NCBI GenBank assembly: GCA_030655315.1
Contig: JAURVT010000022.1
Span: forward strand, 1-64,000
DNA: 64,000 bases
Source: Nocardioidaceae bacterium
GTDB lineage: Bacteria > Actinomycetota > Actinomycetes > Propionibacteriales > Nocardioidaceae
Direction of reading: 5' to 3'
Numbering within the stretch: the stretch's first letter is position 1; each line of letters opens with the position of its first letter. The notes beneath the pieces are model-generated. The model saw nothing but the letters and a program-made list of their open reading frames with translations, did not search any database and was not told the origin of the DNA. Of the stretch, positions 31,988 to 49,749 are shown in pieces. A program made the translations under genes and the position numbers.

Positions 31988-32009
31988 GCGTCCACAGGAG
32001 GGCCGAAAC

Positions 32010-33973: not shown

Positions 33974-34100
33974 CACCTTCGCGGTCGTAGACTGGCAGTG
34001 TCGTAAGACCGCGTCGAGCTCCGTACTCGATACCCGCGCCCAAGCGCTGGTCTAGCTGACCCTCTCACCAAGGGTCTCCTAGCCGTGCCTGGAGGCAGCG

Positions 34101-34328: not shown

Positions 34329-34578
34329 GAAAAGAAGCAGCCCCACGGGGACGAACCGTGGAGCTGCAGAGTCTTCGGCTGGCGGCCTCGACACTCCCAT
34401 TCTAGGCGACGCGATCGCTTATGCAGTGTTTGTTGAGACCACCGAGGGTCGTGAATCACGACGGCTGTTCCTGTCGCTGCACGGTGCGCTCAAGGCCATC
34501 ACTCGAGCCGAGGCCCGCGGCCACACGGCGACCATGACACTTTGCGCGCTGGTTCCGGTCGGCGGTGACCGCGCATGA
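34318..34578 (+). CDS. Small hypothetical protein
   Basis: The 86-residue product starts at ATG 34318 and overlaps the previous gene's end. A disordered Ser/Gly-rich N-terminus is followed by YAVFVETTEGRESRRLFLSL and a short helix. No family is recognised. The stop overlaps the next start (ATGA), so it belongs to the same rightward operon. Confidence 0.6.
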   Translation: MSHEKRSSPTGTNRGAAESSAGGLDTPILGDAIAYAVFVETTEGRESRRLFLSLHGALKAITRAEARGHTATMTLCALVPVGGDRA

Positions 34579-34862
34579 GGCGCGTGCGACTGAGTGAGGA
34601 GCTGGCCGAGCAGATCGCAGTCGACGCGCTCAAGGAAGCGCTCGAGTCCGCGACCCGCGGGTGGTGGCTGAAGCGCGCAGCCGACTTCGAGCGGGCCATG
34701 CACCGTCCCGGCGACTTCGCGGGGCTGTCCTCGGTCGAGCAGATCGAGGACATCAACGCCCGCCTAAAGGCGAAGGCCGACGCCTGCCGCGCTCACGCCG
34801 GTATTGCGCCGCGGTGGGTCGAGGGCATCTCGGATCTCGACAGCGCTGAGGCGGCCGCATGA
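34575..34862 (+). CDS. Small hypothetical protein
   Basis: The 95-residue, mostly helical protein has LAEQIAVDALKEALESATRG and a later block QIEDINARLKAKADACRAHA. Four-base overlaps with both neighbours place it in a tightly coupled run of small genes before the RepA-like ATPase. Function unknown. Confidence 0.65.
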   Translation: MRRVRLSEELAEQIAVDALKEALESATRGWWLKRAADFERAMHRPGDFAGLSSVEQIEDINARLKAKADACRAHAGIAPRWVEGISDLDSAEAAA

Positions 34863-35098
34863 GGCGCCGCCCGTGGATCTCCATCGAGATCGAGCCGGAC
34901 AGCCGCGTGGCCTGGGTGAGCGGTCAGAATGTTCGCCCGCTGATCGAGCGCGCCGGCGGACGGCCGCTGTGGTCTGCCACTCGGCGCGCGTGGAACACGT
35001 CGTCTGAAGTCGGTCGCGACCTCCTGGCCGTCGCTGAGCACGCCGGATACGCCGTGGTGTTCAGCGCTGGGGGTGAGGACTTTGACGACGCAGCCTGA
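34859..35098 (+). CDS. Small hypothetical protein
   Basis: The 79-residue protein starts at ATG 34859. The pattern WISIEIEPDSRVAWVSGQNV, then RPLIERAGGRPLWSATRRAW and a central VGRDLLAVAEHAGYAVVF, looks like a compact alpha/beta fold. It overlaps the start of the RepA-like gene. No family is recognised. Confidence 0.65.
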   Translation: MRRRPWISIEIEPDSRVAWVSGQNVRPLIERAGGRPLWSATRRAWNTSSEVGRDLLAVAEHAGYAVVFSAGGEDFDDAA

Positions 35099-36167
35099 TT
35101 CGGACTTCTGGCTCAACCCGCCCGAGCTCGAAGACGAGGCCGCCGACGTCACGTTCAAGCGCGACTGGAAGGCCGTTGACCTCACGGACGTGCTCGAGGG
35201 CACCTGGGAGCCTCCACAGCCCACTGTGGGCCGACGTAGCGACGGGGTGGGCCTGTTCTACCCCGGGAAGGTCCACACGGTCGCCAGCGAGTCCGAGGCC
35301 GGTAAGACATGGTTCGCGCTGTCCGCGGTGATTGACGAGATCATGGCCGGCAACCACGTGCTGTATGTCGACTTCGAGGACGACGCCGGGGGAGTGGTCG
35401 GCCGTCTCCTGGCCCTGCAGCTCGGCGCCGAGCTGGTGCGGGAGCGGCTGCACTACGTGCGACCCGAGTCCGCGCTCGGCAGCGGCATCCACTCGGACGA
35501 CCTGCGCGATCTGCTGGTCACCTACCGGCCCACGCTGGCCATCGTCGATGGCATCACTGAGGCGATGACGCTGCACGGGCTGGACCCGCTGTCCAACAAG
35601 GACATCGCGACCTTCGGGCGGCTGATCCCCAGACGGCTGGCAGACGACGGCCCCGCTGTCGTCTGCTTGGACCACGTCGTCAAGGACCGTGAGGGCCGAG
35701 GCCGCTACGCCCTCGGTGGCGTGCACAAGCTGAACGCTGTCGACGGTGCCGCTTTCCTTCTCGACAATCGCAAGCCGTTCGGCATCGGCCTCAAGGGCAT
35801 CACGACGATTCGAATTGCCAAGGATCGACCGGGGCAGCTGCGCAAGCACGGCGTGCCGAACGCGCAGGGGGTGTGGTTCGCAGACCTGACGCTCGACTCC
35901 CACGACGAGGCGTTCGCCGAAGTCGAGGTGGTGCCGGCCGAGAAGAAGGCCACAGAGGAGTTCAGGCCCACCGCGATCATGGGCAAGATCTGCGAAGCGA
36001 TCGAGGACAAGGGACCGCTCTCGGGGGCGAAGATCAACGCTCTTGTGACTGGCAAGGCAACGACGATTCGGCAGGCGATTTCCTTGCTGCAAATCGACGG
36101 GTACGTCTCGGACGGGACACCGCACACGTTGCTCAAGCCCTGGGATGGGGGCGGTTCCAATGCCTGA
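35073..36167 (+). CDS. RepA-like AAA ATPase (replication initiator candidate)
   Basis: The 364-residue protein starts at GTG 35073. A RecA/AAA_25-type ATPase domain shows the Walker A segment ASESEAGKTWFAL near residue 70, LYVDFEDD, Walker B TLAIVDGITEAM, and VVCLDHVVKD followed by GRYALGGVHKLNAVDGA. This set is typical of RepA-like helicase or initiator ATPases of plasmids and satellites. A C-terminal winged-helix-like part (GKICEAIEDKGPLSGAKINA) follows. A direct- and inverted-repeat cluster starts right at its stop, suggesting an adjacent origin. Confidence 0.82.
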   Translation: MRTLTTQPDSDFWLNPPELEDEAADVTFKRDWKAVDLTDVLEGTWEPPQPTVGRRSDGVGLFYPGKVHTVASESEAGKTWFALSAVIDEIMAGNHVLYVDFEDDAGGVVGRLLALQLGAELVRERLHYVRPESALGSGIHSDDLRDLLVTYRPTLAIVDGITEAMTLHGLDPLSNKDIATFGRLIPRRLADDGPAVVCLDHVVKDREGRGRYALGGVHKLNAVDGAAFLLDNRKPFGIGLKGITTIRIAKDRPGQLRKHGVPNAQGVWFADLTLDSHDEAFAEVEVVPAEKKATEEFRPTAIMGKICEAIEDKGPLSGAKINALVTGKATTIRQAISLLQIDGYVSDGTPHTLLKPWDGGGSNA

Positions 36168-36636
36168 TCTCGTCCCCTCTTCCCAACCTCTTCCCACCTC
36201 TTCCCAGGACGGGGCCAGTACCCCTCAAATCGACCTCGTCCCCTCTTCCCGCTCTATAGGAAGAGGGACGAGGGACGAGGGTCTGGAGAAGCAGAACTCA
36301 CACGACAACCTCGTCCCCTCGTCCCAAGCCCGCAGACGGCCCATTCGGCTCGAAGACCTGCCCCGCCTTGCGGTGGACCACGACAGGTTCATGGCCAAGC
36401 TCACCGACCTGCGAGAGGCAGGCGAGCGCATTCCGTGCGTCGGTGACGATCGGTGGATCAGCGACGACCGCCAGGCGCAGGCCGAGGCTGCTCAGAAGTG
36501 TGCCGGGTGCCCGGCGCTGGCCGCTTGCGGGTCGTACTTCGAGCGGTGGCCCGAGCCGGGCGGCGTGTGGGCCGGGCTCACCGAGAGAGCCCGAGACGGC
36601 CGCGCCGTCGGCAGGCGAAAGAAGGTGGCCGGGTGA
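36160..36636 (+). CDS. WhiB-like iron-sulfur protein
   Basis: The frame is read from ATG 36160, which overlaps the RepA-like stop. WhiB features are clear in the second half: a first Cys in RIPCVGDDRW, then KCAGCPALAACGSYF giving CxxCx5C, and GGVWAGL as the G(V/I)W turn. Phage WhiB proteins can interfere with host WhiB regulators or sigma factors. The first ~50 residues are low-complexity LVPSS repeats encoded by the iteron-like DNA, so the true start could be further in (for example GTG near 36372). Length is then 87-158 residues. Confidence 0.78.
   Translation: MPDLVPSSQPLPTSSQDGASTPQIDLVPSSRSIGRGTRDEGLEKQNSHDNLVPSSQARRRPIRLEDLPRLAVDHDRFMAKLTDLREAGERIPCVGDDRWISDDRQAQAEAAQKCAGCPALAACGSYFERWPEPGGVWAGLTERARDGRAVGRRKKVAG
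36169..36326. repeat. Iteron-like repeats and dyad next to the RepA-like gene
   Basis: CTCGTCCCCTCTTCCC occurs at 36169-36184 and 36235-36250. The 10-mer CCTCTTCCCA occurs at 36176, 36187 and 36197. A near-perfect inverted copy, GGAAGAGGGACGAGG, lies at 36259-36273 facing the second long repeat across a short AT-containing loop (CTATA). CCTCGTCCCCTCGTCCCA follows at 36309. Clustered repeats with a dyad beside an initiator gene are what an origin of replication looks like; origin function is inference. Confidence 0.75.
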
Positions 36637-37061
36637 ACAGCGTTTGGGGTGAGATCCCCGCGTCGCCCGACGTGCAGGTGCTAGGCGACGCAGTGGTCCT
36701 TCGAGGCGCCGCGGCCCTCGAGGCGTTCCGCCTGGTGCGACAGGGCATCCAGTACCAGGAACGTACCGACCACATCTCGGCCAATCCGCGAGTGCTGGGC
36801 GTCCTCGCCGCACTGAAGGTCGCGGCTGAGCGTGCAGGCATGTCCGCCAGCGGACACGCGGACGTCCGCAAGGAGCCCGATTCGCCATCGTTGGTCATGC
36901 AGCTGGGGATCACTGCGGCGGCGCACGAGCTGAACATGACCGAACGGCACGTGCGCCGCCTGGCCCGAGACGGCGTCATCGCCGGTCGAAAGGTCGGGCA
37001 GTCCTGGCAGCTGGACAGGGCAGCGGTCCTGGCCCACCGACTGGAAAGAGAGTCCGCCTGA
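36633..37061 (+). CDS. Helix-turn-helix DNA-binding protein
   Basis: The 142-residue protein starts at a GTG overlapping the WhiB-like stop. The C-terminal half carries a MerR/excisionase-type HTH: ITAAAHELNMTERHVRRLAR and the wing DGVIAGRKVGQSWQLDRAAV. The N-terminal half is helical. Its place among early genes suggests regulation of the rightward operon or excisionase activity; serine integrases normally use non-HTH directionality factors, so a regulator is more likely. Confidence 0.75.
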   Translation: MNSVWGEIPASPDVQVLGDAVVLRGAAALEAFRLVRQGIQYQERTDHISANPRVLGVLAALKVAAERAGMSASGHADVRKEPDSPSLVMQLGITAAAHELNMTERHVRRLARDGVIAGRKVGQSWQLDRAAVLAHRLERESA

Positions 37062-37234
37062 TGCCGAAGTACATCGTCACCGCGCCCCTGGTCACCCTCA
37101 CCACGACCCCCGCGGTGGTCCCGAACCCGTCTTACGAGAAGCGCTACGAGAAGGGCGACGTGCTGCCCGACTGGGTCAGCGCGGCAGACCTTGCCAGGCT
37201 GCAGGGGCTGAACTACGTCCAGACGGTGGCGTGA
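37061..37234 (+). CDS. Small protein, first of a tandem paralogous pair
   Basis: The 57-residue protein starts at ATG 37061. It shares the pattern APLVxLTT, YEKxYxxGDxLPxW(V/I)S and DL with the next gene. Function unknown; the motif resembles small phage proteins with an SH3-like beta fold, which is only an impression. Confidence 0.72.
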   Translation: MPKYIVTAPLVTLTTTPAVVPNPSYEKRYEKGDVLPDWVSAADLARLQGLNYVQTVA

Positions 37235-37455
37235 GCGAGATGGTGACCAAGTCGGACCACAAGACCACCACGCGTTACGTGGTGCTCGCGCCGCTGGTGC
37301 AGCTCACGACAAGTGAGGGACCGTTCATCGGGCCCAACCACGTCTACGAGAAGCAGTACCGCGAAGGCGACACGCTGCCCTCCTGGATCAGCGACACCGA
37401 TCTGGGGCAACTGCTCGAGTTCGGGTACGCCCGGCCGATCGAGCAGGTCGCGTGA
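37231..37455 (+). CDS. Small protein, second of a tandem paralogous pair
   Basis: The 74-residue protein starts at GTG 37231, overlapping its paralogue. APLVQLTTSEGPF, YEKQYREGDTLPSWISDTDL and FGYARP align with the preceding protein, which points to a local duplication. No function is recognised. Confidence 0.72.
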   Translation: MSEMVTKSDHKTTTRYVVLAPLVQLTTSEGPFIGPNHVYEKQYREGDTLPSWISDTDLGQLLEFGYARPIEQVA

Positions 37456-37976
37456 TGGCCGACCCTTACTCGCCGAACCCGCTGGCGGACCAGTACGCCC
37501 AGACCCACCCGGAGCGGTTCGAAGCAGTGTCGGCCGCCAAGGCGCCGCCCAAGATGTTCGCCGGCGGCACCTCGGACACCCCGGCGTTCACGGCTTCAGG
37601 CATCGACCCTCAGCTCCTGCTGCGGCTTCCCTACGGGGTACGACATGCAGCTGCGGCTGAGCCTGACGTCACGGTGGTGCATGGGTACTTCGAGCAGTAC
37701 GCAGACGTCGACGGTGCTGTCATCGACCACGAGGGGCTGCGCGCCGCCCAGTACCGACTCCAGGACTGGATCGAGAACACAGACCTGGACACGCGCACCC
37801 CCGAGCAGCAGCAGGCGGACGACGACGAGCTCTACCTCGCGATGTTCAACCCGAGCAACGACCGCATGGCCTACGCGAAGGAGAACAAGCGTCGGCTCGA
37901 GGCTGGCGAGGACGAACTGCCGCGCTTTGGCAGCTACGAGATGAACCAGCTGTGGGAGCAGGAGGGCGCTCGCTGA
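37452..37976 (+). CDS. Hypothetical phage-type protein
   Basis: The 174-residue acidic protein starts at GTG 37452 or ATG 37455. Landmarks are SPNPLADQYAQTHPERFEAV, FEQYADVDGAVIDHEGLRAA and a helical C-terminus with MNQLWEQEG. It closes the tightly packed rightward operon that began near 34.1 kb. I do not recognise a family. Confidence 0.65.
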   Translation: MMADPYSPNPLADQYAQTHPERFEAVSAAKAPPKMFAGGTSDTPAFTASGIDPQLLLRLPYGVRHAAAAEPDVTVVHGYFEQYADVDGAVIDHEGLRAAQYRLQDWIENTDLDTRTPEQQQADDDELYLAMFNPSNDRMAYAKENKRRLEAGEDELPRFGSYEMNQLWEQEGAR

Positions 37977-38331
37977 TGCGGCACGCCGAAAAGTGCCAGA
38001 CCCGTAGCCAGGCTGAGCGCCTATGCCATCCGGGCGACTCTAAAAGCCTTCGGGGGGCACGCCCCACTGGCGTGGCCGGCAAGAGGGGTGGCGGGGGACC
38101 CCCTTCGACCTCACAGGCTCCCTCTCGGCATAGCGCCAATCTCTCTCCACGGTTTTTTCGCGCTCCCCAGACTGCCTCGCAGGAGCGCCCAGGTTGCCCG
38201 GTGCGCCCCGGCCGCGGTGGCGATGACCGCTCGATCCCCCGGATGCGGCCAGGGCCGGCACGCGTTCGGGCCCACCACCGGGGCGCAATGGTGCAGTTCA
38301 AGGGCGTAAGTCGTTACATCGGGGCATCGTC
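37977..38331. other. 355-base non-coding segment before the terminase-like gene; candidate packaging (cos/pac) region
   Basis: No open frame here has coding character, although one frame stays open by chance. The segment contains the palindrome GGGGGACCCCC at about 38094-38104, a purine/pyrimidine-skewed stretch ending in CTCTCTCCACGG and a TTTTTT run near 38152. Phage cos or pac sites usually lie just upstream of the small terminase gene, which begins at 38332. A packaging site is inference from position and the unusual base pattern. Confidence 0.4.
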
Positions 38332-38622
38332 GTGACTGGTAAGCGTCTGCGCGCGGTCGCACGCGGAGAGACCGGCCAGCCGTCCGTCCCGCGGTCCATC
38401 ACTGATGCGGTTGCCGACGGCCGAACGCTCCAACTCCTTCTTGCGATGAGGGCTCGCCTGGCCACGGCCCTGGATGACCCGAACATCCGAGGCGCTGACC
38501 TTGCCGCCTTGTCCCGTCGGATGCTTGAGATCGCCAAGGAGATCGAGGCGGCCCACTCGAGTGAAGAGTTTGCGGTCGACGGCTCGGTCGCAGACGACGC
38601 GTTCGATCCGGAGGCCATCTGA
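38332..38622 (+). CDS. Terminase small-subunit-like protein
   Basis: The 96-residue protein starts at GTG 38332. The core ITDAVADGRTLQLLLAMRAR, then DDPNIRGADLAALSRRMLEI followed by AKEIEAA, is like the short DNA-recognition proteins that precede the large terminase in actinobacteriophages. No large terminase, portal or capsid gene follows. A lone TerS-type gene is a recognised satellite strategy for redirecting a helper phage's packaging. The assignment rests on pattern and position. Confidence 0.5.
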   Translation: MTGKRLRAVARGETGQPSVPRSITDAVADGRTLQLLLAMRARLATALDDPNIRGADLAALSRRMLEIAKEIEAAHSSEEFAVDGSVADDAFDPEAI

Positions 38623-39332
38623 TGCGCCGGGTCTCGATGAGGCAGTGGGAGTTCGCGTCCTCGCCGCACCTGGGGTCGACCGAGGGTGCGGCGATGGCAG
38701 ACGAGGACGGGCAGCTCTGGTACCTGAAGGACTGGGGTCTGCCATACAAGAACAAGACTGCCAACGAGCTGCTCGGCAACGATCTGTATCGCGCGGCGGG
38801 GGTGCTGGTACCCGAGGTGGTGACCGACGAGACGGGCCGGTTCCACGCGAGCAGGTGGGTCGAGGGACGACCACTCAGCGACCTGACGTCCGAGGAGCTC
38901 GACAGAGTCCGCGCCGACGCGCAGGACGGGTTCATGGTCGATGCATGGCTGAGCAACTGGGACGTCGCAGGCACTGGCAACATGCGCCTGGGTGACGACG
39001 GGCGGGTCTGGCGCATCGATGCCGGCGGGGCGCTGTTCTTCCACGCAATGGGAGTTGCCCGAAGGCTGGGTCGTCACGCTCGCGCAGATGTGGAGTCGAT
39101 GCGCGACCCGGCCGTCGCGACTGAGCAGGGCGCCAAGCTCTTCGCAGACGTCTCCGAGCAAGCACTAATCAGAGGCGCCGAGATGGTCGCCTCAGTCTCA
39201 GCACGCACGATCCAGCAGCTGTCCGCCAAAGCGCAGTTCGCACTCGATGCCGACCTGCGTCTCGACACTCAGGTCATCATCGACCGCCGCAACGACATCG
39301 CCGACCTGTTCGGCCTGATGGTGGAGGACTGA
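38622..39332 (+). CDS. PI3K/HipA-like kinase-fold protein
   Basis: The 236-residue protein starts at ATG 38622, overlapping the previous stop. It has a possible nucleotide-binding Lys in LWYLKDWG, ANELLGNDLYRAAGVLVPEV, a catalytic-loop-like VDAWLSNWDVAGTGNMRL and a DFG-like VWRIDAGGALFF. This resembles HipA/phosphatidylinositol-kinase-like proteins of phages and islands. Substrate unknown. It pairs with the Nudix gene one base downstream, so the two probably work together. Confidence 0.65.
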   Translation: MRRVSMRQWEFASSPHLGSTEGAAMADEDGQLWYLKDWGLPYKNKTANELLGNDLYRAAGVLVPEVVTDETGRFHASRWVEGRPLSDLTSEELDRVRADAQDGFMVDAWLSNWDVAGTGNMRLGDDGRVWRIDAGGALFFHAMGVARRLGRHARADVESMRDPAVATEQGAKLFADVSEQALIRGAEMVASVSARTIQQLSAKAQFALDADLRLDTQVIIDRRNDIADLFGLMVED

Positions 39333-39333
39333 C

Positions 39334-40563
39334 ATGGAGACTCTCGACTGCACGTGTGGACGCCAGCACGATGGCGCTCACGGAGCCGCCGGTCTGGCGC
39401 TGATCAGGGACGGACGCCTGCTGATCTGCCATCATTCGGAGTTCGCAATGGCCAACGGGGTGTGGTCACTACCTGGGGGCCCAGTCGAACACGGCGAGTC
39501 ACCACTGCGGGCAGCGAAGCGGGCAGCTCGCACCGAACTCGCCGGGCTGGACGTGTCCGCGATCCGTGTCGTCGGCGAGATGGTCGACGACCACGGCGGG
39601 TGGGCTTACACGACGCTGATCTGCGAGTACGACGGGCCGACCGAGTTGAAGCCCAGTGGCCCCGACGCGTCAGGGCTGGTGTGGGCGCCGCTCGAGGCGG
39701 TCAGTTCGGCGCAGATGCTGGACCAATCTGCACACACCTGGCCCGCGCTGCGGGATCGGATCAAGCAGCTGTTGGACTTGTCGCCTGTCCTGCCGTCCGA
39801 GGTAGCCGAGATAGCTCGGTGGCTTCGCGCAGTGTCCGCGGACCCGCTGGTGCCCGAGGTCGACCAGAACCCGACCGAGACCACCGTCGGATGGAGGGTT
39901 TGGCGTCCCACGAACCTGGGAGGTCTCGAGGCGCCGTCGCAGGACCCCTGGGTGCCCTGGCCGGCTGAGGGCTACCGGGCCCGCTGCCAGTACCCGAGGT
40001 GGGCGCTGGAGGCCGGTTCGACGGTGCACGAGTCACCTCACCCGGACTGCCTGTGCGGCATCAGGGTGGTGCCGACGATCGAGGAGTTGCTGTCTATTCA
40101 ACCGGTCAATCTCGGCGCCGGCGCGATCAACGACTGGTCGAACATCAGCTACGACTACATGCGCCACCGTGAGGAGTGGGGCCTGTGGGAAACCCTGGAT
40201 GTGGTCGGAACGGTCGAGTGCTGGGGCACGATGGTGCCCACCCGCGAGACCGAGGCCGAGCCCGAGAGCGTTCTGACCGCGCAGTACGCCCGTGTCGGCC
40301 CCAGGGTTCACCTCAGCGGCCACGCCTGGCAGGCGGCCGAGGCGATGGCCGACACCTACAACACCGAGGTCGTCGTGGGCTCGACGCTCGGTCCCAGCTG
40401 GTACCGCGAGATCATCGGCTACGAGAAGAACCACCCCCTGCCCGAGACCCGGGCGGCGAAAGTGACTCCGCTGGGTCCGCTCGGATCGGTCAACTCGCCT
40501 GTGAGTCTGCGGCGGAAGTTCTTCGACTTCTCAGCACTTGCCGATGGCATACACGGCCGCTGA
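39334..40563 (+). CDS. Nudix-fold protein with degenerate Nudix box and unknown C-terminal domain
   Basis: The 409-residue protein has an N-terminal Nudix domain (residues ~15-140): GLALIRDGRLLICHHSEF, WSLPGGPVEHGESPLRAAKR and LVWAPLEAV. The box has the initial G-x5-E and the Arg, but the REUxEE end is RAARTE, so two metal-binding Glu residues are missing. The C-terminal ~230 residues (from GWRVWRPTNLGGL, with a Cys pair in DCLCGIRV) are a separate domain without a family I know. It may bind rather than hydrolyse a nucleotide. It follows the kinase gene directly. Confidence 0.75.
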   Translation: METLDCTCGRQHDGAHGAAGLALIRDGRLLICHHSEFAMANGVWSLPGGPVEHGESPLRAAKRAARTELAGLDVSAIRVVGEMVDDHGGWAYTTLICEYDGPTELKPSGPDASGLVWAPLEAVSSAQMLDQSAHTWPALRDRIKQLLDLSPVLPSEVAEIARWLRAVSADPLVPEVDQNPTETTVGWRVWRPTNLGGLEAPSQDPWVPWPAEGYRARCQYPRWALEAGSTVHESPHPDCLCGIRVVPTIEELLSIQPVNLGAGAINDWSNISYDYMRHREEWGLWETLDVVGTVECWGTMVPTRETEAEPESVLTAQYARVGPRVHLSGHAWQAAEAMADTYNTEVVVGSTLGPSWYREIIGYEKNHPLPETRAAKVTPLGPLGSVNSPVSLRRKFFDFSALADGIHGR

Positions 40564-40742
40564 TGGGCGGACCGCGCCGCTCAATCCCTCTCCGAGGAAG
40601 GCCCAGCGGCGACAGTTGCTTCTCGAGTAGGCCGTCGGTTCCGCCCAAACCGGCCACGCGCGCGTGCATCCGACTAGCCTGCGGGGACCAAGTGCGGCGC
40701 CCACGGCTCCGTGTCGGCGCGGCAACGAGACTGGGGTACAGC

Positions 40743-41729
40743 GTGACGGATGGATTTCGGGTTTTTCGGGCGTTCCTTACGCAGCAACGCAGTTACGACG
40801 AGATCCCCTTCGACCATCCCGACCTCGGTCCTGACGGCATACAAGGATTGATGTCGGCTGCAGTGGTAGATCGAGTCGAAGCCGGCGGAGAAGTGCACGA
40901 AAGTAGCAGCCACTTCCTTCGTGTGGATGACGCGAGGGCTGGCGGGTGGGTGATTGCCCTGACCGCTAGTGGTGGCGGTTACGGCGTCGAACGAGATGTC
41001 GTTGATGTAGTTACTGGCGCGACTAAGCAGCCAATCGGATCGGGTGACGCCGTTCTGAACCGGCTGATGACTCTTCTCGTGCTGCCGAACTTTGGCTGCG
41101 ATGGGCTGCTGATAGCTCAGACGCAGGGGCGGTCGCACCTAACCAGCGCCTTGCTGCGAGACGTGAACTATGCCTTGCATGAGCGCGGTTTTCACCTCCG
41201 GTTGGAGGCCAACCTGACCGATGAGATCGCGTGGAACGACTACTTGAACAGCGATGGAGTGGACGTGAAGGAGATCCAGCTGGTTCAGCACGTGCCCTCC
41301 CCCGACCGAACTAGTTTCGGCGATGGGCGTGTCGTCAGGGCCACTCTGTCCCTAGTTCTGTCGGACGCTGGGGATACCAAGAAGAGTGTGCTTGGCCGGA
41401 TGCGAGAGGCGTTCACGGAGAACAAGCGGCCGGAGCTCACTGACTTGGTCGGTATGACGGCTGCCGGTGATGACGACTTCGACGAGCAAAAGATCGTCTA
41501 CGTGAAGAATAAGCGCGAAAGGACAATAAAGGTCGAGCAGAGCTGGCCAGCATTCATTCACGAGATCTCGTCGGACAAGCCACTGGACCTGAAGACCTTG
41601 CTAGGAGAGTGTCGAGACGACGCGCAGGCCGTGCTAGCCGAGCTCGGGGTCGATCGACCGTCGACATGGTGGCCGCAGGCCCACAAGATGAAGGTCTTAG
41701 CTGTGCGTGACGATGAGGTGTCCGAATGA
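40743..41729 (+). CDS. Unknown soluble protein, coupled to a membrane protein
   Basis: The protein is about 328 residues from GTG 40743; a 179-base non-coding gap precedes it. No recognised domain. It is alpha/beta in look, with GGGYGVERDVVDVVTG, FGCDGLLIAQTQGRSHL and KIVYVKNKRERTIKVEQSWP near the end. The stop overlaps the start of the four-helix membrane gene by four bases. A soluble protein coupled to a small polytopic membrane protein is a common layout in phage-defence islands (Kiwa is one example), but I cannot show homology. Base composition is less GC-rich than the chromosome. Confidence 0.75.
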   Translation: MTDGFRVFRAFLTQQRSYDEIPFDHPDLGPDGIQGLMSAAVVDRVEAGGEVHESSSHFLRVDDARAGGWVIALTASGGGYGVERDVVDVVTGATKQPIGSGDAVLNRLMTLLVLPNFGCDGLLIAQTQGRSHLTSALLRDVNYALHERGFHLRLEANLTDEIAWNDYLNSDGVDVKEIQLVQHVPSPDRTSFGDGRVVRATLSLVLSDAGDTKKSVLGRMREAFTENKRPELTDLVGMTAAGDDDFDEQKIVYVKNKRERTIKVEQSWPAFIHEISSDKPLDLKTLLGECRDDAQAVLAELGVDRPSTWWPQAHKMKVLAVRDDEVSE

Positions 41730-42331
41730 CAAGCTCACTCCAGGCGTTCAACCTGGGCCCCATAGTGGCGAGGCACTTTGCTGCGCTCCGCCCACCCGGC
41801 CAGCCGCGGCAGTCGACGGCCGTGCGGGCGGCCATGCTGGGCGTGCCGGTTGGAGCCGGCGCTTTAGTGGGAGTCCTGGTCGCCTTGGGCCTCGACCTCC
41901 GAGACGGCACCTCTCAAGTCCTTGCCGCAACCGCCCTACTTGTTGGAGCGATGCTCACCTTGTTCGTCTTCTTGACGAACTTGCGCATAAAGATCAGCGA
42001 GAGCGCAACCTACGCATTCCGGACCAGATTGCAACAACTCGTGGGAGGTGCCGCAGTCAGCTCGCTTTACGTTGCCTGCCTGGCAATGCTCGTGGCCCTC
42101 GAGATCGCCACCGTCGCAAGCGTCCAGTGGCTCCGCGACTTCCCGCAGCAACCTCTGACAGCCGCGGTTCTAGTATCCACCGGATGTCATCTTGCCCTCA
42201 CGCTGGTGACTGTCATCAGACGACTGTTTGGCGTCTACTACGAACTGTTTCAGAGTGACTTCAGTCCATCGGTCGATGATGCCAACCGGATGGCAGCCGG
42301 GACGAGCGGAAAGCGAGAAGTGAAGGGCTAG
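41726..42331 (+). CDS. Membrane protein with four predicted helices
   Basis: The 201-residue protein starts at ATG 41726. Hydrophobic helices lie at about residues 35-56, 64-84, 106-129 and 142-165 (for example LVGAMLTLFVFLTNL and SSLYVACLAMLVALEIATVA). The C-terminal tail is charged and cytosolic-looking. It is translationally coupled to the unknown soluble protein upstream, with which it probably forms a functional pair. Confidence 0.78.
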   Translation: MTSSLQAFNLGPIVARHFAALRPPGQPRQSTAVRAAMLGVPVGAGALVGVLVALGLDLRDGTSQVLAATALLVGAMLTLFVFLTNLRIKISESATYAFRTRLQQLVGGAAVSSLYVACLAMLVALEIATVASVQWLRDFPQQPLTAAVLVSTGCHLALTLVTVIRRLFGVYYELFQSDFSPSVDDANRMAAGTSGKREVKG

Positions 42332-42519
42332 GCGGGTGGACCGTCCACACCCTGACCGCCCTGGCCTTCAGTGTTCGAAGGTTGGGATGGGTGAGTGCCG
42401 CCCGGCGGGTCGCTCTGATCAACCTTCGGCAACTGGGTCACCACCTGCTTAGGGCTGCGATTCCCACCCTTCTTCTCGAGCCCATCCCGATTCGGCGTCT
42501 GGTTCGACTGGTCCCGCAT
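42328..42519 (-). CDS. Small disordered protein downstream of DUF6338 gene
   Basis: The 63-residue product is rich in Gln, Gly, Pro and Ser and looks unstructured. ATG 42519 lies three bases after the DUF6338 stop, so the two are probably co-translated. A short proline-rich partner after DUF6338-type genes seems familiar to me, but I cannot verify it. Confidence 0.5.
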   Translation of the reverse strand: MRDQSNQTPNRDGLEKKGGNRSPKQVVTQLPKVDQSDPPGGTHPSQPSNTEGQGGQGVDGPPA

Positions 42520-42522
42520 GGC

Positions 42523-43173
42523 CTACATCACCTGAGCTTCGAGGTACTCGATCTCGTCCCATCTCACCAGCAAGCCGCTGGGCGGGTTGCGGCAAACGGG
42601 CACGCCGTCCACCATGTCAACATACTTCCCGGTAACAGGATCAATTTTCAAGGTCTTGGCTAGATAGACGTCCTGCGCCTCCCCGAAGGCTGAGGAGTAG
42701 GAACTGCCGACGTCTTCGAAGGTTCCGTACACGCCGGCCACCCAGCAGCCACTCTTGAGCCTAGCTCGAACCATGACCGACTTGCCCTGAGTCCAGACGT
42801 ATTCCCAAGCGGTGGGCTGCGGGTTGGCGCCGAAGATGAAGGTGATCACCCTCCACTCGTGTCGCGTTCCATTGCCGATCAAGAGCCCAGCAGAGATGGG
42901 TATCAGAAGGTATACGCCCGCTGCCGCCCACAGATCTCGTGCTGGTACGCCTCCACTCACCAATGCGCCCGACTCGACCCACGCACGGTAGATCTTGACC
43001 TCCCCCCAGAGGAACAACGTGTGGAATACGGCGGACACCACCAAGAAGCGGAGCAGCCGATCGCCGAGTCGCACGCCGTAGGGGCCGACCACTCGTTCGA
43101 AGGCGTAGGTGTAAGACGCCCCGGGCAGGAAGGCGAGTAGGAAGACAACTACCGCCTGGAAGGTCCCGATCAT
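42523..43173 (-). CDS. DUF6338 family membrane protein
   Basis: The 216-residue protein starts at ATG 43173. It has an N-terminal hydrophobic segment with VVFLLAFLPGASYTYAFER, a second near residues 37-58, and a third near 88-105 (YLLIPISAGLLIG). A soluble C-terminal domain follows (PTAWEYVWTQGKSVMVRARL, GCWVAGVYG, and WDEIEYLEAQV at the end). These match the DUF6338 pattern, which is frequent in genomic islands. Role unknown. It is oriented against the preceding cargo genes. Confidence 0.75.
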   Translation of the reverse strand: MIGTFQAVVVFLLAFLPGASYTYAFERVVGPYGVRLGDRLLRFLVVSAVFHTLFLWGEVKIYRAWVESGALVSGGVPARDLWAAAGVYLLIPISAGLLIGNGTRHEWRVITFIFGANPQPTAWEYVWTQGKSVMVRARLKSGCWVAGVYGTFEDVGSSYSSAFGEAQDVYLAKTLKIDPVTGKYVDMVDGVPVCRNPPSGLLVRWDEIEYLEAQVM

Positions 43174-43210
43174 GGTTGGACTTTAGTAGCCCGCCGTCGG
43201 GATCGAACTA

Positions 43211-43465
43211 GTGATCGATACTAACGAACGCCCAGTCGGCGCCTCAGTCGAGAAGAGGCTTTCGCCGTCCGCCTTAACGCCGCGGCCAGCAACACGGTCG
43301 ACAACTTTCGCCCGGCGGCCGAGATGGCTCGTCGCCGAGCTGCAGGAGACCGCGGGGGAGTGGACCGATCTACCGGCCGCCGAGCTCGGGATGATCGTCG
43401 GCTTCTGGGTGCGTGGTCCAGCCAAGTCTCGGGTCAAGGCCGGACCAGGCCGAGTCTGGGTGTAA
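43211..43465 (+). CDS. Small hypothetical protein (weak)
   Basis: The 84-residue frame from GTG 43211 contains TTFARRPRWLVAELQETAGE and WTDLPAAELGMIVGFWVRGP, which read like natural protein. No clear ribosome site or family is seen. It lies between the DUF6338 gene and the tyrosine recombinase. Confidence 0.4.
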   Translation: MIDTNERPVGASVEKRLSPSALTPRPATRSTTFARRPRWLVAELQETAGEWTDLPAAELGMIVGFWVRGPAKSRVKAGPGRVWV

Positions 43466-43519
43466 GTAACCACCTAGCCGGGCCTGGACGACTGGTGACT
43501 GCCGTAGTTGCGTGAGCGG

Positions 43520-44503
43520 ATGACAGACACACGAAGCGCCGCCACGATTCCGCTGCGCGACCGCGACTTGCCACCCGTGATTGATCAACTCCTCACCGAC
43601 TACCTGCTGCCTTACGGGGGCAACACGAGGTGCCTATATGAGATGCACCTGGCCCTTTTCCTTCGCTGGTGCGCCGACGCAGGCCTTGGCCCACTTGCCG
43701 CCACGCGCACTCATATCGAGCTCTACATCCACTATCTGCTCGTCGAAAAGGGCCTGAAGCCGTCAAGTGTCTGCACCGCGCTCACGCCGGTCCGTGGCTT
43801 CTACCGGTTCGCCTGTTACGAGGGTGCGGTCGACCGTGATCCAGCCATCTACGCCCGCCGGCCCAAGGTGCACACAGGGCTGAGCGACACCCTTGGGCTC
43901 GACCGCGACCAAATGAGGGCCTTCTTGGCGGTGGGCGCCGAGATGGGTGGCCGGTACTACGCCGCAGCCTTCCTGCTCGCCTGCATGGCACTGCGCGCGA
44001 GTGAGGCCTGCTCCATCCGTTGCGAGAGCTTCGAGAAGACGATGCGTGGGCACCGCGTGCTTGAGTTCGTGGGGAAGGGGATGGTGCCAGCGCGGATGCC
44101 GCTGCCCGTGCCTGTCCTGCGAGCTCTCGAGGCTGCTGCCGGAGGGCGCGCGTCGGGGCCGTTGCTACTGGTCCGCGATGGCACTCGGGGCATGCAGCGG
44201 CAGGGGCTGAACACGCTAGTCGCCACGATGTCAAAACGTGCCGGGATCGAGTCCAAGGTGACCTCGCATGTGCTGCGACACAGCAGCATCACGAACGCTT
44301 TGGAGTCTGGTGCTTCGCTGCGCAAGGTTCAGGATCTGGCGCGGCACACCGAACCGAGGACGACGATGCGTTATGACCGAAACCGGACCAATCTCGACGA
44401 CCACGCCGTGCACTCGTTGGTGGCATTTGTGGTTCCAGTTGGCGAAGACGGCACAACCATGGGGCTTGCCGGGGATGACCGAGGGGCTCGCGCTGGGGCG
44501 TGA
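43520..44503 (+). CDS. Tyrosine recombinase (XerC/D-like)
   Basis: The 327-residue recombinase starts at ATG 43520 (a TTG lies four codons upstream). The N-terminal SAM-like core-binding domain is followed by the catalytic domain. All residues are visible: Arg in ACMALRASEA, Lys in FVGKGMVP, H-x-x-R in SHVLRHSSI, the second His in LARHTEPRT and the nucleophile in TTMRYDR. It is the element's second recombinase. It could resolve dimers, invert or mobilise part of the cargo, or mark a nested insertion. Confidence 0.9.
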   Translation: MTDTRSAATIPLRDRDLPPVIDQLLTDYLLPYGGNTRCLYEMHLALFLRWCADAGLGPLAATRTHIELYIHYLLVEKGLKPSSVCTALTPVRGFYRFACYEGAVDRDPAIYARRPKVHTGLSDTLGLDRDQMRAFLAVGAEMGGRYYAAAFLLACMALRASEACSIRCESFEKTMRGHRVLEFVGKGMVPARMPLPVPVLRALEAAAGGRASGPLLLVRDGTRGMQRQGLNTLVATMSKRAGIESKVTSHVLRHSSITNALESGASLRKVQDLARHTEPRTTMRYDRNRTNLDDHAVHSLVAFVVPVGEDGTTMGLAGDDRGARAGA

Positions 44504-44680
44504 GCGTGGTCTGCGCGGCGGCCGCAGCGCGTAAGGATAGGGCAGGCCGCATTGGCGGCTCGGCTGACTGGTGCAAGTGAGGGCTCTTCGCGTGTCAGGC
44601 CATGCTGCAACAGCGCGTCAGCCTTTCAATCGGGCGTGCGTTGCGTACCCTCGGGGTTCCCGCCCCATCAGGAGACTTAC

Positions 44681-45589
44681 GTGGCGTCGTCGCCTCTTAC
44701 GATGCAGGAGCAGTCTGACTTCGATCAGTACGCCCTGGCTGTCGACGTCTATGCGTCGACATGGTGGGACCTCGCCGACGAGCCGCAGAAGTCTCGCCTG
44801 AAGTCGGCGCCACACCTCCGGTCAGCGCTCGACACTATGGCGAGAGATGGGCGGCGAATCCCTACGTCGAATGTCTACCAAGATGCCGGTCATTGGATTC
44901 CCGTTCGTGAACTACTGCAAGACACACTCATAGCGAACGAGCTGGGCGAGGCAGGGGGGTCAGCGGAGGGCAGCCCGAACGCGTGCTATTTCCTCCTTGG
45001 TCTGCCTGGGTCCGGCAAGACTTCGGTGTTGCGTGAGGTTGCGAGGGCGCACGCGGCCGCTGCGGGTCTCGCACTATCAAATCGGGTCAGCGACGCTGAC
45101 CAGCTGAGGAAGGCGCTGCCCGAGTTTGCGAGCGGACTGGGATCAGACATCCTCCAAGAAGAGGTTGTCTCGATGACCTACGGAGATTCCTCAAGACCGC
45201 GGGCCCGTAGTCTCGAGGAAGGCGTGATGCGAACGGCGCACGCGGGGTCGCTAGTGATGATCGACGTTGTCGGAGACCCGAAGTACCTGCCGGGTAGCGT
45301 GACGGCACTGGCCGAGCGTGGGTGGACCGTGTTCGTCCTGGTTACCCAGTGCTCCGCCGACGAAGCGGTGATTCGTGCGACCAGACGAGCCCTCAGCGAT
45401 GGGAGGTATACCCCTCTGGACCTCATCTGGGGGTCAAACCTTCGCCCAGTAAGAGCACTCAATGCCGCTCTCAGGACTGAGGCGGTGGATGGGTGGGCCC
45501 TTATCGACACTGAGGACAGTCCTGCGCGTGTGGTTCGTGGGGACGGGGCATTCGGCGACAACGGAACACTGATCTCGCTGCCTGTGTGA
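44681..45589 (+). CDS. Zeta-toxin-like P-loop kinase
   Basis: The 302-residue protein starts at GTG 44681, with AGGAG six bases upstream. An extended helical N-terminus precedes a P-loop kinase domain: FLLGLPGSGKTSVLREVARA, then a zeta-type SDADQLRKALPEF and a later ADEAVIRATRRAL helix. Zeta toxins phosphorylate UDP-GlcNAc or other nucleotides; substrate here is unknown. No small epsilon-like antitoxin is next to it, though a 170-residue protein and an ImmA/IrrE peptidase follow in order. Confidence 0.65.
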   Translation: MASSPLTMQEQSDFDQYALAVDVYASTWWDLADEPQKSRLKSAPHLRSALDTMARDGRRIPTSNVYQDAGHWIPVRELLQDTLIANELGEAGGSAEGSPNACYFLLGLPGSGKTSVLREVARAHAAAAGLALSNRVSDADQLRKALPEFASGLGSDILQEEVVSMTYGDSSRPRARSLEEGVMRTAHAGSLVMIDVVGDPKYLPGSVTALAERGWTVFVLVTQCSADEAVIRATRRALSDGRYTPLDLIWGSNLRPVRALNAALRTEAVDGWALIDTEDSPARVVRGDGAFGDNGTLISLPV

Positions 45590-45675
45590 CACGCCGACAG
45601 CCCTACCGGCTTGGTTTGCCGACCGTGACAGGCTGGTGGTGTAGCATCACGCGCTACCCCTGAAGGGACAGGTTC

Positions 45676-46188
45676 GTGCCTGAGAGCAAGAACAAGCAGG
45701 ACGCGGTGATCCGTCTTGCCCGTGCTCAGGAGCAGCTGATGCACGCGGAGATCCAGGGGGATCTTGAGCTGAAGGCCTCGGCACGCTTGGCGATGGCCGA
45801 GGCCGAAGACAAGCTAGCGAAGAGTAGGCGCCGTCAAGTGACTGCGGCTATCGGCGACGCCCTGGACGAGCGCGCTCGACAGAGTGCCGACCCGCTTCGA
45901 CAGGCGTTGAGCGGCGGCCTTACCTTCCCAGAGCTCCTTTCGCGAGTGGATGAGACTGTCGACCGTCTGGACCACCGCGAGGCGCTGGCAGTTAAAACTC
46001 GGCCATCAAACATCAGGCTTGTACTGCTTGCCCGCCATCAAGGCCGGTCGTTTGTAGAGGTGGAATCCGAGTTTCTAGGCCCGGCTGCCTCTCGTCGTGG
46101 CAGTTTCGTACTCGCCGCTCGAACATACGACGCAAAGTCCGCCAAGCGGATAGCTAGGCTCTTGAGTCGGCACGGAGTAAACGTTTAG
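45676..46188 (+). CDS. Hypothetical protein with N-terminal coiled coil
   Basis: The 170-residue protein starts at GTG 45676 after GAAGGGA. Residues ~5-60 form a charged helix (RLARAQEQLMHAEIQGDLEL and EDKLAKSRRR). The C-terminus has IRLVLLARHQGRSFVEVESE and a basic terminal helix. It ends two bases before the ImmA/IrrE gene, so the two are coupled. It could be an antitoxin, repressor or substrate of that peptidase; this is inference from arrangement. Confidence 0.65.
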   Translation: MPESKNKQDAVIRLARAQEQLMHAEIQGDLELKASARLAMAEAEDKLAKSRRRQVTAAIGDALDERARQSADPLRQALSGGLTFPELLSRVDETVDRLDHREALAVKTRPSNIRLVLLARHQGRSFVEVESEFLGPAASRRGSFVLAARTYDAKSAKRIARLLSRHGVNV

Positions 46189-46190
46189 TT

Positions 46191-47189
46191 ATGACAGGTG
46201 CGACCAGGCTCCACCCTGAGCAAGCGCTGGCCGACAAGTTGGTGGCACGCTTGGACCTGCGGCCGCCTGTAGACGTCGGTGCGCTGCTGTCGCAATTTTG
46301 CGACGTTGTTCAAGACGATTTCCTAGGCAACGCGGACGCTGTTATGTACGGGCTTCTAGAAGAGAGCAAGCCCCTGCTGCTTCTAAATCCGCAGAAGAGT
46401 GAGCAGAGGATCCGTTTCACTCTGGCTCACGAGTTGGCGCACTTGCTGATCCCCTGGCACGTGGGGACAATTGAGTGCCATCCCCTCAGTAACGACTACG
46501 ACGGTACAAATCAGCCAGCCGAGGAGTCGTCTAGTTCGTCGCGGGGCTACCGGTCACTGGAGGATGAGGCTGACCGCTTCGCATCAAGAATCCTGGTGCC
46601 ACGCCGCTTCCTGGACACACTTCGCGGCTTAAGCGTTCGCGAAGCCTGCGTCGAGCTTGAGTCGACCAACGTTTCCGCGACCGCCGCAATGAGGGCATAT
46701 AGCGACTCCCTCAGTCCTGGCTATGCCCTTTTGGTTGTGTCGGACAACGACACGGTGATCAGTTGGCACATGGCGCCTCAAACAGTGAGCCCCGGATTTC
46801 GTAGAGGCGTAGTCGTCGATCCCGCGTGGCTCTCGACAGCAGTTGACCGGGGAAGGGCTACGTACCGAAACCGGTCGGTGATCTGGATGCGCAGCGTCAC
46901 TAGTCTGGACGAGTCGGTGTCAGTCCCATGGAGAACATTGCTTGACGAACTACTCGATGGGCAGCAACTCCGTCCGCCCGCCCGCGAAGCTCTGTGGAAG
47001 ACCATCAACGGCGTAGCCGCTAGCGCCAACAGCGCATCAGCCACGTCCGACCCAAGCGCCGTTGCCGCAGCGATCCTGAACGCCGCAGCCCGCAGACCGG
47101 AGCTCGTGCAGGTGGTCGCGGACCCAAGATTCAAGCAGTTCGCCATTGCCCGAGCCATGTCCTTCGCCGGGTTCGCAAAACCGAACTGA
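46191..47189 (+). CDS. ImmA/IrrE-family metallopeptidase
   Basis: The 332-residue protein starts at ATG 46191. Its zinc site is clear: HELAH in RFTLAHELAHLLIPWH, with the third ligand Glu in LEDEADRFASRILVP. ImmA-type peptidases cleave phage or island repressors, and IrrE activates DNA-damage responses by cleaving a repressor. The ~200-residue C-terminal extension is unassigned and may sense a signal. It converges exactly on the end of the ParB-like gene. Confidence 0.85.
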   Translation: MTGATRLHPEQALADKLVARLDLRPPVDVGALLSQFCDVVQDDFLGNADAVMYGLLEESKPLLLLNPQKSEQRIRFTLAHELAHLLIPWHVGTIECHPLSNDYDGTNQPAEESSSSSRGYRSLEDEADRFASRILVPRRFLDTLRGLSVREACVELESTNVSATAAMRAYSDSLSPGYALLVVSDNDTVISWHMAPQTVSPGFRRGVVVDPAWLSTAVDRGRATYRNRSVIWMRSVTSLDESVSVPWRTLLDELLDGQQLRPPAREALWKTINGVAASANSASATSDPSAVAAAILNAAARRPELVQVVADPRFKQFAIARAMSFAGFAKPN

Positions 47190-48000
47190 TCACTTGGGCT
47201 CGGGAAAGTTTTCGTTCGTCAGCCCACCTCTCGGCATCTGTAGCTTGGTCCGCTTCTCCCCGGCCCGGTGTGCGTTCCATGCCCGGATGGTCAGGGCGAG
47301 ACCTTCGGTCTCGTTGATGCGCCCGCCGGTGATGCGCAGACGGGTCACCCTGCTGCGGAGGACGGCGATGGGGGAGTCGGCCGCGACGCCGTCTCCGTCT
47401 GCCACGCGCAATAGGAAGGTGTTGGCCTCGTCGGGGTCGAGGTCGCTGAACAGGAAGTGGCACAGCCCGATGACCGAGGCGGGCAGGCGTTCGCGGTTGG
47501 CCAGTCTCGAGGCGAGGTCGGCTGAGGTGCGCACGCGCGGGTTGGCCTCGACGAAGGCGTGCATCTCGCGGGCTGTCGGTCGGATGGCGCCGGTGTTGGT
47601 GCGCATCCCGCGTTCCCACATGACCGCTCGACGGGCGACTGAGGCCAGGGTCGACGGGTTGGTCTCGCCGCGGAGCTTGAGGGCGTCTGCGTAGGTGCGC
47701 TTGGCGCCTGCGTCGACGGTGTCCATCGCTTCGGCCTCGACGCCATGCACGACGATCATGGGCACGGTGACGCCGGCCTGGACGACCGCTGACAGGCGGT
47801 GCTGTCCGTCGATGAGCTTGCCGGCCCGGTCGAGCTTCACGGTCTCACCGTTGAGCGCCCACTCGCCGGCGGCCATGTCGCGGGCGTAGGAGTCGACGAC
47901 TGCGCGTCGCAAATTTCTGTTGCTCGGGTTGAGTCCAAGCCAGGTCTCGGCCATGGCGGGGTCGACGTCGCGGACTTCGACGGTGGGGCGGTCGGGCATG
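47190..48000 (-). CDS. ParB/sulfiredoxin-fold phage protein
   Basis: The 269-residue protein starts at ATG 48000 (MPDRPTVEVRDV), preceded by AGGACAGC. The N-terminal ParB-like module has YARDMAAGEWALNGETVKLD and the signature KLIDGQHRLSAVVQAGVTVP. The remaining helical region carries VARRAVMWERGM. Phage versions are widespread and mostly uncharacterised. A longer frame reaches 48101 but lacks a ribosome site. It is the last gene of the leftward operon. Confidence 0.75.
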
Positions 48001-48097
48001 GCTGTCCTGTCTGAGGTGGGGCTGCTGGCGTGGGAGAACCGCACGCCCCGGGAGGCGTGCGGCGTGGGTGGGTCTCGGCCGGGCATGGGCAGTGGGG

Positions 48098-48388
48098 TCA
48101 CCGGCGGGCCGCCAGCTCGTTGCGCGCGACAGTCAGCGCGGCGATGGTCTGGTCGAGGAGCTCGACGTCGGGCAGGCCCTTGCCGACGGGCGGATCGAGC
48201 AGGACTTCGATGCAGCCGTCGCCGGCCACGCCGTGGGAGACCAGGACCATGCCGTCCTCGGCCCCCTCGTCGAAGTGGATGCCGAGTCGCTTGCGGGCGA
48301 GTAAGAGGTCGCCGTTGTAGGAGTAGTCGACGCGGCGGTCACAGATGTCCGGGTCGTAGGCGCCCATCTGCAGGATCTCGGCACTCAT
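48098..48388 (-). CDS. Small hypothetical protein
   Basis: The 96-residue acidic protein starts at ATG 48388, overlapping the upstream stop (ATGA). It contains MVLVSHGVAGDGCIEVLLDP and ends in a helix (TIAALTVARNELAARR). Unlike its three upstream neighbours it lacks the C-x-W-C-x-H-like knuckle. No family is recognised. Confidence 0.65.
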   Translation of the reverse strand: MSAEILQMGAYDPDICDRRVDYSYNGDLLLARKRLGIHFDEGAEDGMVLVSHGVAGDGCIEVLLDPPVGKGLPDVELLDQTIAALTVARNELAARR

Positions 48389-48681
48389 CGGGTCACCTCT
48401 GCGGCGGCGATGAGCTCGTTGAGGGCGTCGGCCAGGGTGCGCGCGTCGTCCAGGCTCAGGGCGTCATCTACGCCGTCCTGGGTGAGGTAGATGCGGGGTC
48501 CGAAGATGCCGTCAGCGGCCTCGAGCGTGTCGAGCTGGACCGACACCTGCTCGCCCTCGGACCGCTCCCAGGAGACGACCGGTGACAGGTGGCCTAGAGA
48601 CCCGTCTGCGGTGGGTCGGTGCTCGGCGCACCAGGGCTGGCAGGCGGGGGTGACCTTGAGGCGGTCGGTGAGGGCGATCAT
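48385..48681 (-). CDS. DUF6907-like small protein
   Basis: The 98-residue protein starts at ATG 48681 (MIALTDRLKV), overlapping the upstream stop. The Cys motif CQPWCAEH near residue 16 and the C-terminal helix LSLDDARTLADALNELIAAA fit the small actinobacterial DUF6907-type proteins of plasmids and integrative elements. The Cys/His knuckle suggests metal binding. Function unknown. Confidence 0.6.
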   Translation of the reverse strand: MIALTDRLKVTPACQPWCAEHRPTADGSLGHLSPVVSWERSEGEQVSVQLDTLEAADGIFGPRIYLTQDGVDDALSLDDARTLADALNELIAAAEVTR

Positions 48682-49025
48682 GCTGCGGCCTCCGGTCCCT
48701 GGACCCACCAGCCGGCTGCCTCGATCTGGCGGCCGAGGTTCATCAGCACCGAGCCGACCGAGATGACGTCACCGGCCTCGAACTCGTCGGTGCCCATCGA
48801 GCCCGAGCCGTCGTTGCCTTCGAGGCGCACGTCGGGCCCGTGGGTCTCGCGGACGTTGAGGTACTCGATCCATCGGATCTGCGCGGTGACCTCGGTGTCG
48901 CGGACGGTTCTGATGGTGACGGTGTCGCCCTTGTGGCGGATCAGGGAGTCGTCAGGGTGACCGTCGAGCTCGATGTCGTCGTGGGTGCACCAGGCGGGGT
49001 GTCGGAGGTCGTCGCGGCTGGTCAT
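48678..49025 (-). CDS. DUF6907-like small protein (divergent)
   Basis: The 115-residue protein starts at ATG 49025. It has the Cys knuckle in HPAWCTHDDI, a central beta region (TVTIRTVRDTEVTAQIRWIE) and the end SVGSVLMNLGRQIEAAGWWV. It overlaps both neighbours by four bases. The single PAWC motif links it to the adjacent genes. Confidence 0.55.
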   Translation of the reverse strand: MTSRDDLRHPAWCTHDDIELDGHPDDSLIRHKGDTVTIRTVRDTEVTAQIRWIEYLNVRETHGPDVRLEGNDGSGSMGTDEFEAGDVISVGSVLMNLGRQIEAAGWWVQGPEAAA

Positions 49026-49677: not shown

Positions 49678-49697
49678 GGGTACCTCCGTGGGTCGAG

Positions 49698-49732: not shown

Positions 49733-49749
49733 CGTTCTAGGCCGGATTT

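Follow-up and report, generated by a model that had tools for sequence, protein, structure and literature searches.

The two overlapping genes described here probably form a divergent RexAB-type abortive-infection (exclusion) module, a function to which we assign a probability of about 0.7 from sequence comparisons. They lie in the window, by which we mean the whole 64,000-nucleotide stretch of Nocardioidaceae DNA that was analyzed, and encode a soluble protein (protein 1) followed by a membrane protein (protein 2). Since the families of both proteins match the exclusion pairs of phages CarolAnn and Sbash, and since the related pair of Gordonia phage DumpsterDude has already been described as Rex homologues, the window pair is read as RexAB-type and neither as evidently Kiwa nor as a new kind of system. 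The accessible text of PMC11077077 places Rex homologues in several phages, among them DumpsterDude as well as CarolAnn and Sbash, so that the candidate for a new system proposed in the preliminary description has a family member already in print.

The gene pair and its relatives

Both frames are open at the coordinates in Table 1 (ORF check of the window). The four-base overlap, the less GC-rich cargo and the four-helix second protein of the preliminary description were all confirmed: the genes share an ATGA motif, GC content is 0.599 for the pair and 0.652 for the whole inserted element against 0.733 in the remainder of the window, and four hydrophobic segments (residues 36-54, 65-83, 105-123 and 146-164) were found in protein 2 by a hydropathy scan with a 19-residue window and a cut-off of 1.3, which is not a dedicated transmembrane predictor. 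Protein 1 is acidic (pI 4.96, net charge -17).

Relatives of protein 1 are rare. They were found in 2 of 98 related genomes (whole-genome search; the sole foreign one, G043, at 23% identity), in 5 of 296 genomes of the phylum at E 0.01 and, by profile searches for the protein 1 family, in 3 of 294 family genomes and 3 of 396 phylum genomes, each count including the window's own genome. By this rarity a housekeeping pair was rejected, and the housekeeping homology that the preliminary description had named as grounds for abandoning its reading did not appear. In G043, the soluble gene is followed by a gene for a 179-aa membrane protein that aligns weakly with window protein 2. The G043 protein, used as bait, retrieved the Glutamicibacter plasmid pR912A and DumpsterDude; profiles retrieved G400 and G724, and later rounds added G791, G786, a Microbacterium plasmid, Propioniferax, Arthrobacter and Dulem virus 32.

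Together with the window these make up 12 distinct loci, spanning phages, a provirus (L022, the same locus as G724 and protein-identical to IMG/VR contig 644736327), plasmids and chromosomes; the G791 contig is the same as L033. At all 12 the soluble gene comes first and the membrane gene follows directly on the same strand, as in the CarolAnn/Sbash branch, and the two genes were never apart in any locus that was opened and kept, which answers favorably the question of co-occurrence raised in the preliminary description. Because the same order recurs at 11 other loci, the window pair is more than a chance pair of open reading frames. A search with only the membrane protein led to the Propioniferax and Arthrobacter loci, and in each of them the soluble gene precedes the membrane gene.

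The membrane proteins supplied nine rows of one profile (A11) and two more of another (A13). Eleven of the 12 have four predicted segments, a count that takes DumpsterDude gp43 from a start ahead of the annotated one; the Dulem virus 32 protein, judged by hydropathy and eye only, has three above the cut-off. The annotated start of DumpsterDude gp43 (L010 6986-7483) is apparently about 50 codons late, since the open frame ahead of it encodes the conserved N-terminus and the first membrane segment. The annotated start of the RexA-like gene of pR912A (L011 5950-6028) overlaps the IS6100 transposase gene, and the first ~26 residues of its protein match unrelated viral contigs.

Several searches returned nothing or were rejected. 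Query P0001 found no relative in viral contigs, genome contigs, plasmids or phages; neither did P0003 or profile A9 in viral contigs, nor P0007 in phages, and P0005 found only DumpsterDude itself in phages. Six viral-contig matches of P0007 cover its first residues only (at most 1-38) and were read as the IS6100 end, where the annotated gene begins, not as relatives. Of the four weak foreign matches from the 296-genome search, the one in L003 was dropped as it falls in the frame of a 292-aa ORF that was read by eye as another kind of membrane protein, and those in L004, L005 and L006 on score and coverage; a match in L018, from the profile search of 396 phylum genomes, was dropped as it sits in a region read as pyrimidine synthesis.

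Profile and fold comparisons

Named family libraries do not recognize the pair. In Pfam the best matches of proteins 1 and 2 lie under the cut-offs (E 0.033 and 0.0027, respectively), the best PADLOC match for the pair reaches only 12.9 bits, NCBIfam gives none for protein 1 and at best E 0.051 for protein 2, and neither protein has a PHROGs match up to E 0.01. The defence-model search suggested in the preliminary description therefore came out negative for the Pfam and PADLOC defence families. The Pfam RexA family (PF15969) and the PADLOC RexA model likewise do not match window protein 1, and the window pair is for this reason not filed in the narrow lambda-type RexA family. Lambda RexA passes both models; CarolAnn gp44, a proven RexA-like protein, is also missed by both. 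A PDB sequence search with the family profile gave weak matches only (best E 0.0025), taken as unrelated. The verdict of no recognizable domain in protein 1 thus stands for Pfam, PADLOC, NCBIfam and PHROGs and falls for profile-profile comparison, in which the protein is RexA-like.

In that comparison, the RexA-like family (nine sequences) matched CarolAnn gp44, Sbash gp30 and Sejanus gp46 at 99.1% (E 1.7e-18, 294 columns), against 0.2% for the reversed profile and at most 0.8% for 50 column shuffles; with the window protein removed the score was still 98.9%. The RexB-like family (nine sequences) matched CarolAnn gp43, Sbash gp31 and Sejanus gp45 at 85.5% over 140 columns (reversed, 0.5%; 50 shuffles, at most 0.8%), and crossing the soluble with the membrane profile gave 0.0 and 0.1%. 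Compared with their own families without themselves, window protein 1 scored 97.9% (280 columns; 50 shuffled copies at most 1.1%) and window protein 2 93.5% (155 columns; 50 shuffled copies at most 0.9%). Alone against the CarolAnn profiles, they scored 45.4% and 0.2%, and the link to CarolAnn thus runs through the wider family. Lambda RexA and RexB were unreached by sequence, at 0.3% with both the nine-sequence and the five-sequence profile. By these scores the soluble proteins are predicted homologues of the RexA-like proteins of the CarolAnn/Sbash branch, and their partners, with four predicted segments, of its RexB-like proteins.

At the residue level, R87 lies at the end of segment 2 of protein 2, and an arginine is present there in seven of nine family members, the window included. 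Residues R70 and D73 in the central cytoplasmic loop of Sbash gp31 are reported to be needed for defence; hhalign places R70 one residue off R87, across a gap, and gives D73 no clear equivalent. Seven of nine RexB-like proteins share a DE pair, in place of which the window copy has GG.

Fold models were of uneven quality. The AlphaFold model of window protein 1 is poor (mean pLDDT 47.6); CENP-N, Chl4 and RdgC chains match it at Z 6.6-7.3, within background, and lambda RexA is not among the matches listed. The model of the Propioniferax relative is better (mean pLDDT 72.5) and was built from eight sequences, those of the window, CarolAnn and Sbash among them. In VIA-align it aligned with lambda RexA (8TWQ) at Z 7.5, rank 5, over 147 residues at 4.1 A, spanning residues 4-296 of 311 in the model and 1-269 of 279 in RexA. 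The Z value falls in the range reached by unrelated folds, which stand close below; the best rows include yeast Iml3 (Z 8.7) and human CENP-N (8.3), which we take to be the counterpart of yeast Chl4, and E. coli RdgC reaches 6.2. RdgC, Iml3 and Chl4 are the structural relatives of RexA named in the accessible text of PMC11077077. In the Foldseek ranking, RexA is absent from the best 50 rows for the window and Propioniferax models alike. The Z values alone are not decisive; joined to the profile match, the modelled fold agrees with the RexAB reading.

The element in tadA and the neighborhoods of the pair

Table 1. Positions of the gene pair, the inserted element and other features in the window
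Feature	Position	Strand	Remarks
5' part of split tadA	31685..31966	+	read by eye; 94 aa; no own family match
Integrated element	31955..49785	.	~17.8 kb, ends approximate; splits tadA/cpaF; carries the pair
Large serine integrase	31980..33446	+	phrog_95, 3e-104; fragment searched
DNA polymerase/primase-like protein	35073..36167	+	phrog_695, 4.5e-18
Terminase small subunit-like protein	38332..38622	+	phrog_1459, 1.6e-21
NUDIX-domain protein	39334..40563		409 aa; upstream of the pair
RexA-like soluble protein (protein 1)	40743..41729	+	328 aa; GTG start, TGA 41729; predicted infection sensor/activator
ATGA overlap	41726..41729	+	four bases, both genes; translational coupling inferred
RexB-like membrane protein (protein 2)	41726..42331	+	201 aa; ATG start, TAG end; predicted effector
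DUF6338 membrane protein	42523..43173	-	convergent with the pair
XerD-like tyrosine recombinase	43508..44503		downstream of the pair
170-aa gene	45676..46188		two bases upstream of the next gene
IrrE-type metallopeptidase	46191..47189		PADLOC capP, 3.1e-22
3' part of split tadA	49774..50745	+	PF00437, 2.3e-31; TIGR03819, 3.1e-70, model 72-339 of 340

The pair is carried by an element integrated in tadA (Table 1). The N part of tadA, the start of a TadA-type ATPase, reads EIWINDPSRV up to about 31966 and the C part resumes with PSRVFVARGG at about 49774; as for an attachment-site core, no 6-mer is common to both element junctions. The element also encodes an excisionase-like protein (8.1e-5), a WhiB-like protein, a second (tyrosine) integrase and an IrrE-like protease. 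Among the 18 element proteins scanned, which are not every ORF, no capsid, portal or tail genes were found, barring a weak match between the NUDIX protein and a family labelled portal. The gene set of phage-inducible islands comprises an integrase, an excisionase, a primase and a small terminase but no structural genes, and this likeness makes a phage satellite a fair guess for the window element. A literature search for satellites in Actinobacteria found no paper.

Other genes of the element were noted in passing. A XerD-like tyrosine recombinase gene lies inside this serine-integrase element. The IrrE-type metallopeptidase and the 170-aa gene before it are a possible second defence or regulatory module. 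The DUF6338 membrane protein scored 0.1% against the RexB-like family, and the 409-aa protein, which has an N-terminal NUDIX domain and a C-terminal part assigned to no family, weakly matches PADLOC PDC-S07 (2.3e-6). In G043 the pair is also inside a tadA-associated element, whose right end (L002 2798-3222) abuts a tadA-like fragment at another codon (by eye; no Pfam match); different recombinases may repeatedly use tadA as their insertion site.

Two kinds of neighborhood recur among the 12 loci. A repressor-like HTH gene lies directly upstream of the pair in DumpsterDude and Dulem virus 32, and in L022 a CI-like HTH/S24 repressor lies upstream with one gene between; this order of repressor and then pair resembles that of lambda rexAB after cI. 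Restriction-modification genes adjoin the pair at four of the 12 loci, namely HsdR and subunit S (as annotated) on the Microbacterium plasmid, a cytosine methylase, a NotI-type gene and a D12 methylase in Propioniferax, GmrSD and HsdR in Arthrobacter, and an N-6 methylase of type I kind in G791/L033. One membrane-protein search returned exactly these four loci, which group closely with the Glutamicibacter plasmid in a single subfamily, so the proportion of 4 in 12 is not unbiased and may reflect one lineage. The Glutamicibacter plasmid pair has an IS6100 flank and no restriction gene in the 6 kb inspected, and the G400 pair adjoins a long ORF read by eye, with no search support, as a tail tape measure. 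The window pair is a two-gene, membrane-associated system that very probably acts in phage defence, as the preliminary description suggested, and it recurs elsewhere, with pairing at all 12 loci and restriction-modification genes beside four.

Proposed mechanism, alternatives and known systems

Under the RexAB reading, protein 1 would be a cytosolic RexA-like sensor, probably dimeric, that detects a phage product or a phage DNA intermediate and then activates protein 2, the RexB-like four-helix membrane protein. Activated protein 2 would depolarize the membrane and lower ATP, halting the infected cell before phage production. This wiring is inferred by analogy with CarolAnn, Sbash and Pseudomonas putida RexABpp. 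For CarolAnn and Sbash, neither gene suffices without the other; the proposal there is that the RexA-like protein activates its RexB-like partner as the effector, with a loss of membrane potential, and the triggers are different phage proteins (accessible parts of PMC6426606, PMC6426596 and PMC12894663). In P. putida, over-expression of RexA arrests growth only with RexB present, and the two proteins made no contact in a two-hybrid test (accessible part of PMC12894663), so direct activation of RexB is unproven even in a studied system. Two features of the window pair would not fit this wiring neatly: the acidity of protein 1 and the GG that replaces the conserved DE in protein 2. The pI of protein 1 does not suggest non-specific DNA binding, which is described for three RexA-like proteins (Sbash, CarolAnn and Toast) in the accessible text of PMC11077077; as the DNA-binding CarolAnn gp44 (pI 5.63) and Sbash gp30 (pI 6.13) are acidic too, this counter-evidence is tempered.

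Reversed wiring, with a toxic soluble effector that its membrane partner keeps inactive until infection, is improbable. Mycobacteriophage Butters gp30/gp31 are wired in this way although counted as Rex-like (accessible text of PMC12894663), and the ATGA overlap would suit matched output of both proteins; however, the matched homologues from CarolAnn and Sbash have the membrane protein as the proposed effector. We consider it equally unlikely that the pair is a helper of the lysogeny switch and not mainly a defence, tipping the element toward integration or else toward excision or replication. Such an influence of RexA on the switch is reported for lambda (accessible text of PMC11077077) and three relatives lie in phage immunity regions, but no repressor gene was seen directly before the window pair and four relatives stand beside restriction-modification genes. 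An addiction (toxin-antitoxin) module stabilizing the mobile element is very unlikely: the coupling of a membrane and a soluble protein, and its presence on plasmids and integrated elements, would suit it, whereas the profile match to proven exclusion pairs, the restriction-modification neighborhoods and the lack of any antitoxin-like family match for the pair in Pfam and NCBIfam argue against it. A Kiwa-type or wholly new two-gene system, suggested by the soluble and four-helix membrane proteins shared with KwaA/KwaB and by the empty named-library searches, can be given hardly any weight, since both families match the CarolAnn/Sbash RexAB-type pairs instead and the gene order of Kiwa, membrane gene first, is opposite to that of the window pair. 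PADLOC includes Kiwa models, and neither protein matched any in the Pfam or PADLOC scans; as those libraries miss the proven CarolAnn gp44, this is a weak negative, and a search of the window's genome for KwaB (PF16162) found none but its positive control also matched no genome. The earlier pointer to Kiwa or to a new kind of system is not supported.

A broader proposal, to which we would give somewhat less than even odds, is that RexAB exclusion, far from being confined to prophages, is a free-standing mobile defence module of Actinomycetota, moving without a repressor among phages, satellite-like elements, plasmids and restriction-modification islands, and that in this branch a phage protein, and not DNA, may be what the acidic RexA-like protein senses.

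Judged by sequence, the window pair is a new, divergent member of the RexAB-type systems; since the DumpsterDude pair has been named as Rex homologues, the kind is known. The accessible text of a 2026 paper (PMC12894663) counts only five described RexAB-like systems, and that of a DefenseFinder survey (PMC9090908) places RexAB in Proteobacteria only, mostly in prophages, with models that may detect too little. RexAB-type systems in the literature found, as far as its accessible text goes, are those of phages and prophages. A literature search, with subscription journals and preprints outside its scope, gave no prior description of the chromosomal and plasmid branch. The newer point is the location of the family, in a satellite-like element in tadA and, for four relatives of one subfamily, beside restriction-modification genes. 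This family, which the Pfam and PADLOC models do not detect, places RexAB-type pairs on chromosomes and plasmids of actinobacteria and in a satellite-like element, and a profile made from it would allow a census of the true spread of RexAB. The new pairs could also be used for asking what trips RexA, which is still unknown for T4 rII according to the accessible text of PMC12894663.

Among known systems, P. putida RexABpp (PP_5643-5644), a prophage two-gene pair with a 4-TM effector, is likened to the window pair by description only, having itself been recognized by HHpred and fold (accessible text of PMC12894663). Lambda shares the gene order (cI-rexA-rexB) and a 4-TM effector; the fold of its RexA aligns with the model of a window family member, whereas sequence similarity is undetectable and lambda RexA is basic (pI 8.61), in contrast to the acidic window protein. 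DumpsterDude gp44/gp43 belong to the same family as the window pair and have the same order of soluble and membrane genes, with soluble proteins 17% identical; unlike the window pair, they have the immunity repressor of a temperate phage as their immediate upstream neighbor. CarolAnn gp44/gp43 and Sbash gp30/gp31 belong to a different branch, the aligned soluble profiles being 15-17% identical, and, unlike the window pair, are phage-borne, that of CarolAnn being co-expressed with the repressor; they are proven two-gene exclusion pairs with the same gene order as the window pair and, like it, four transmembrane segments.
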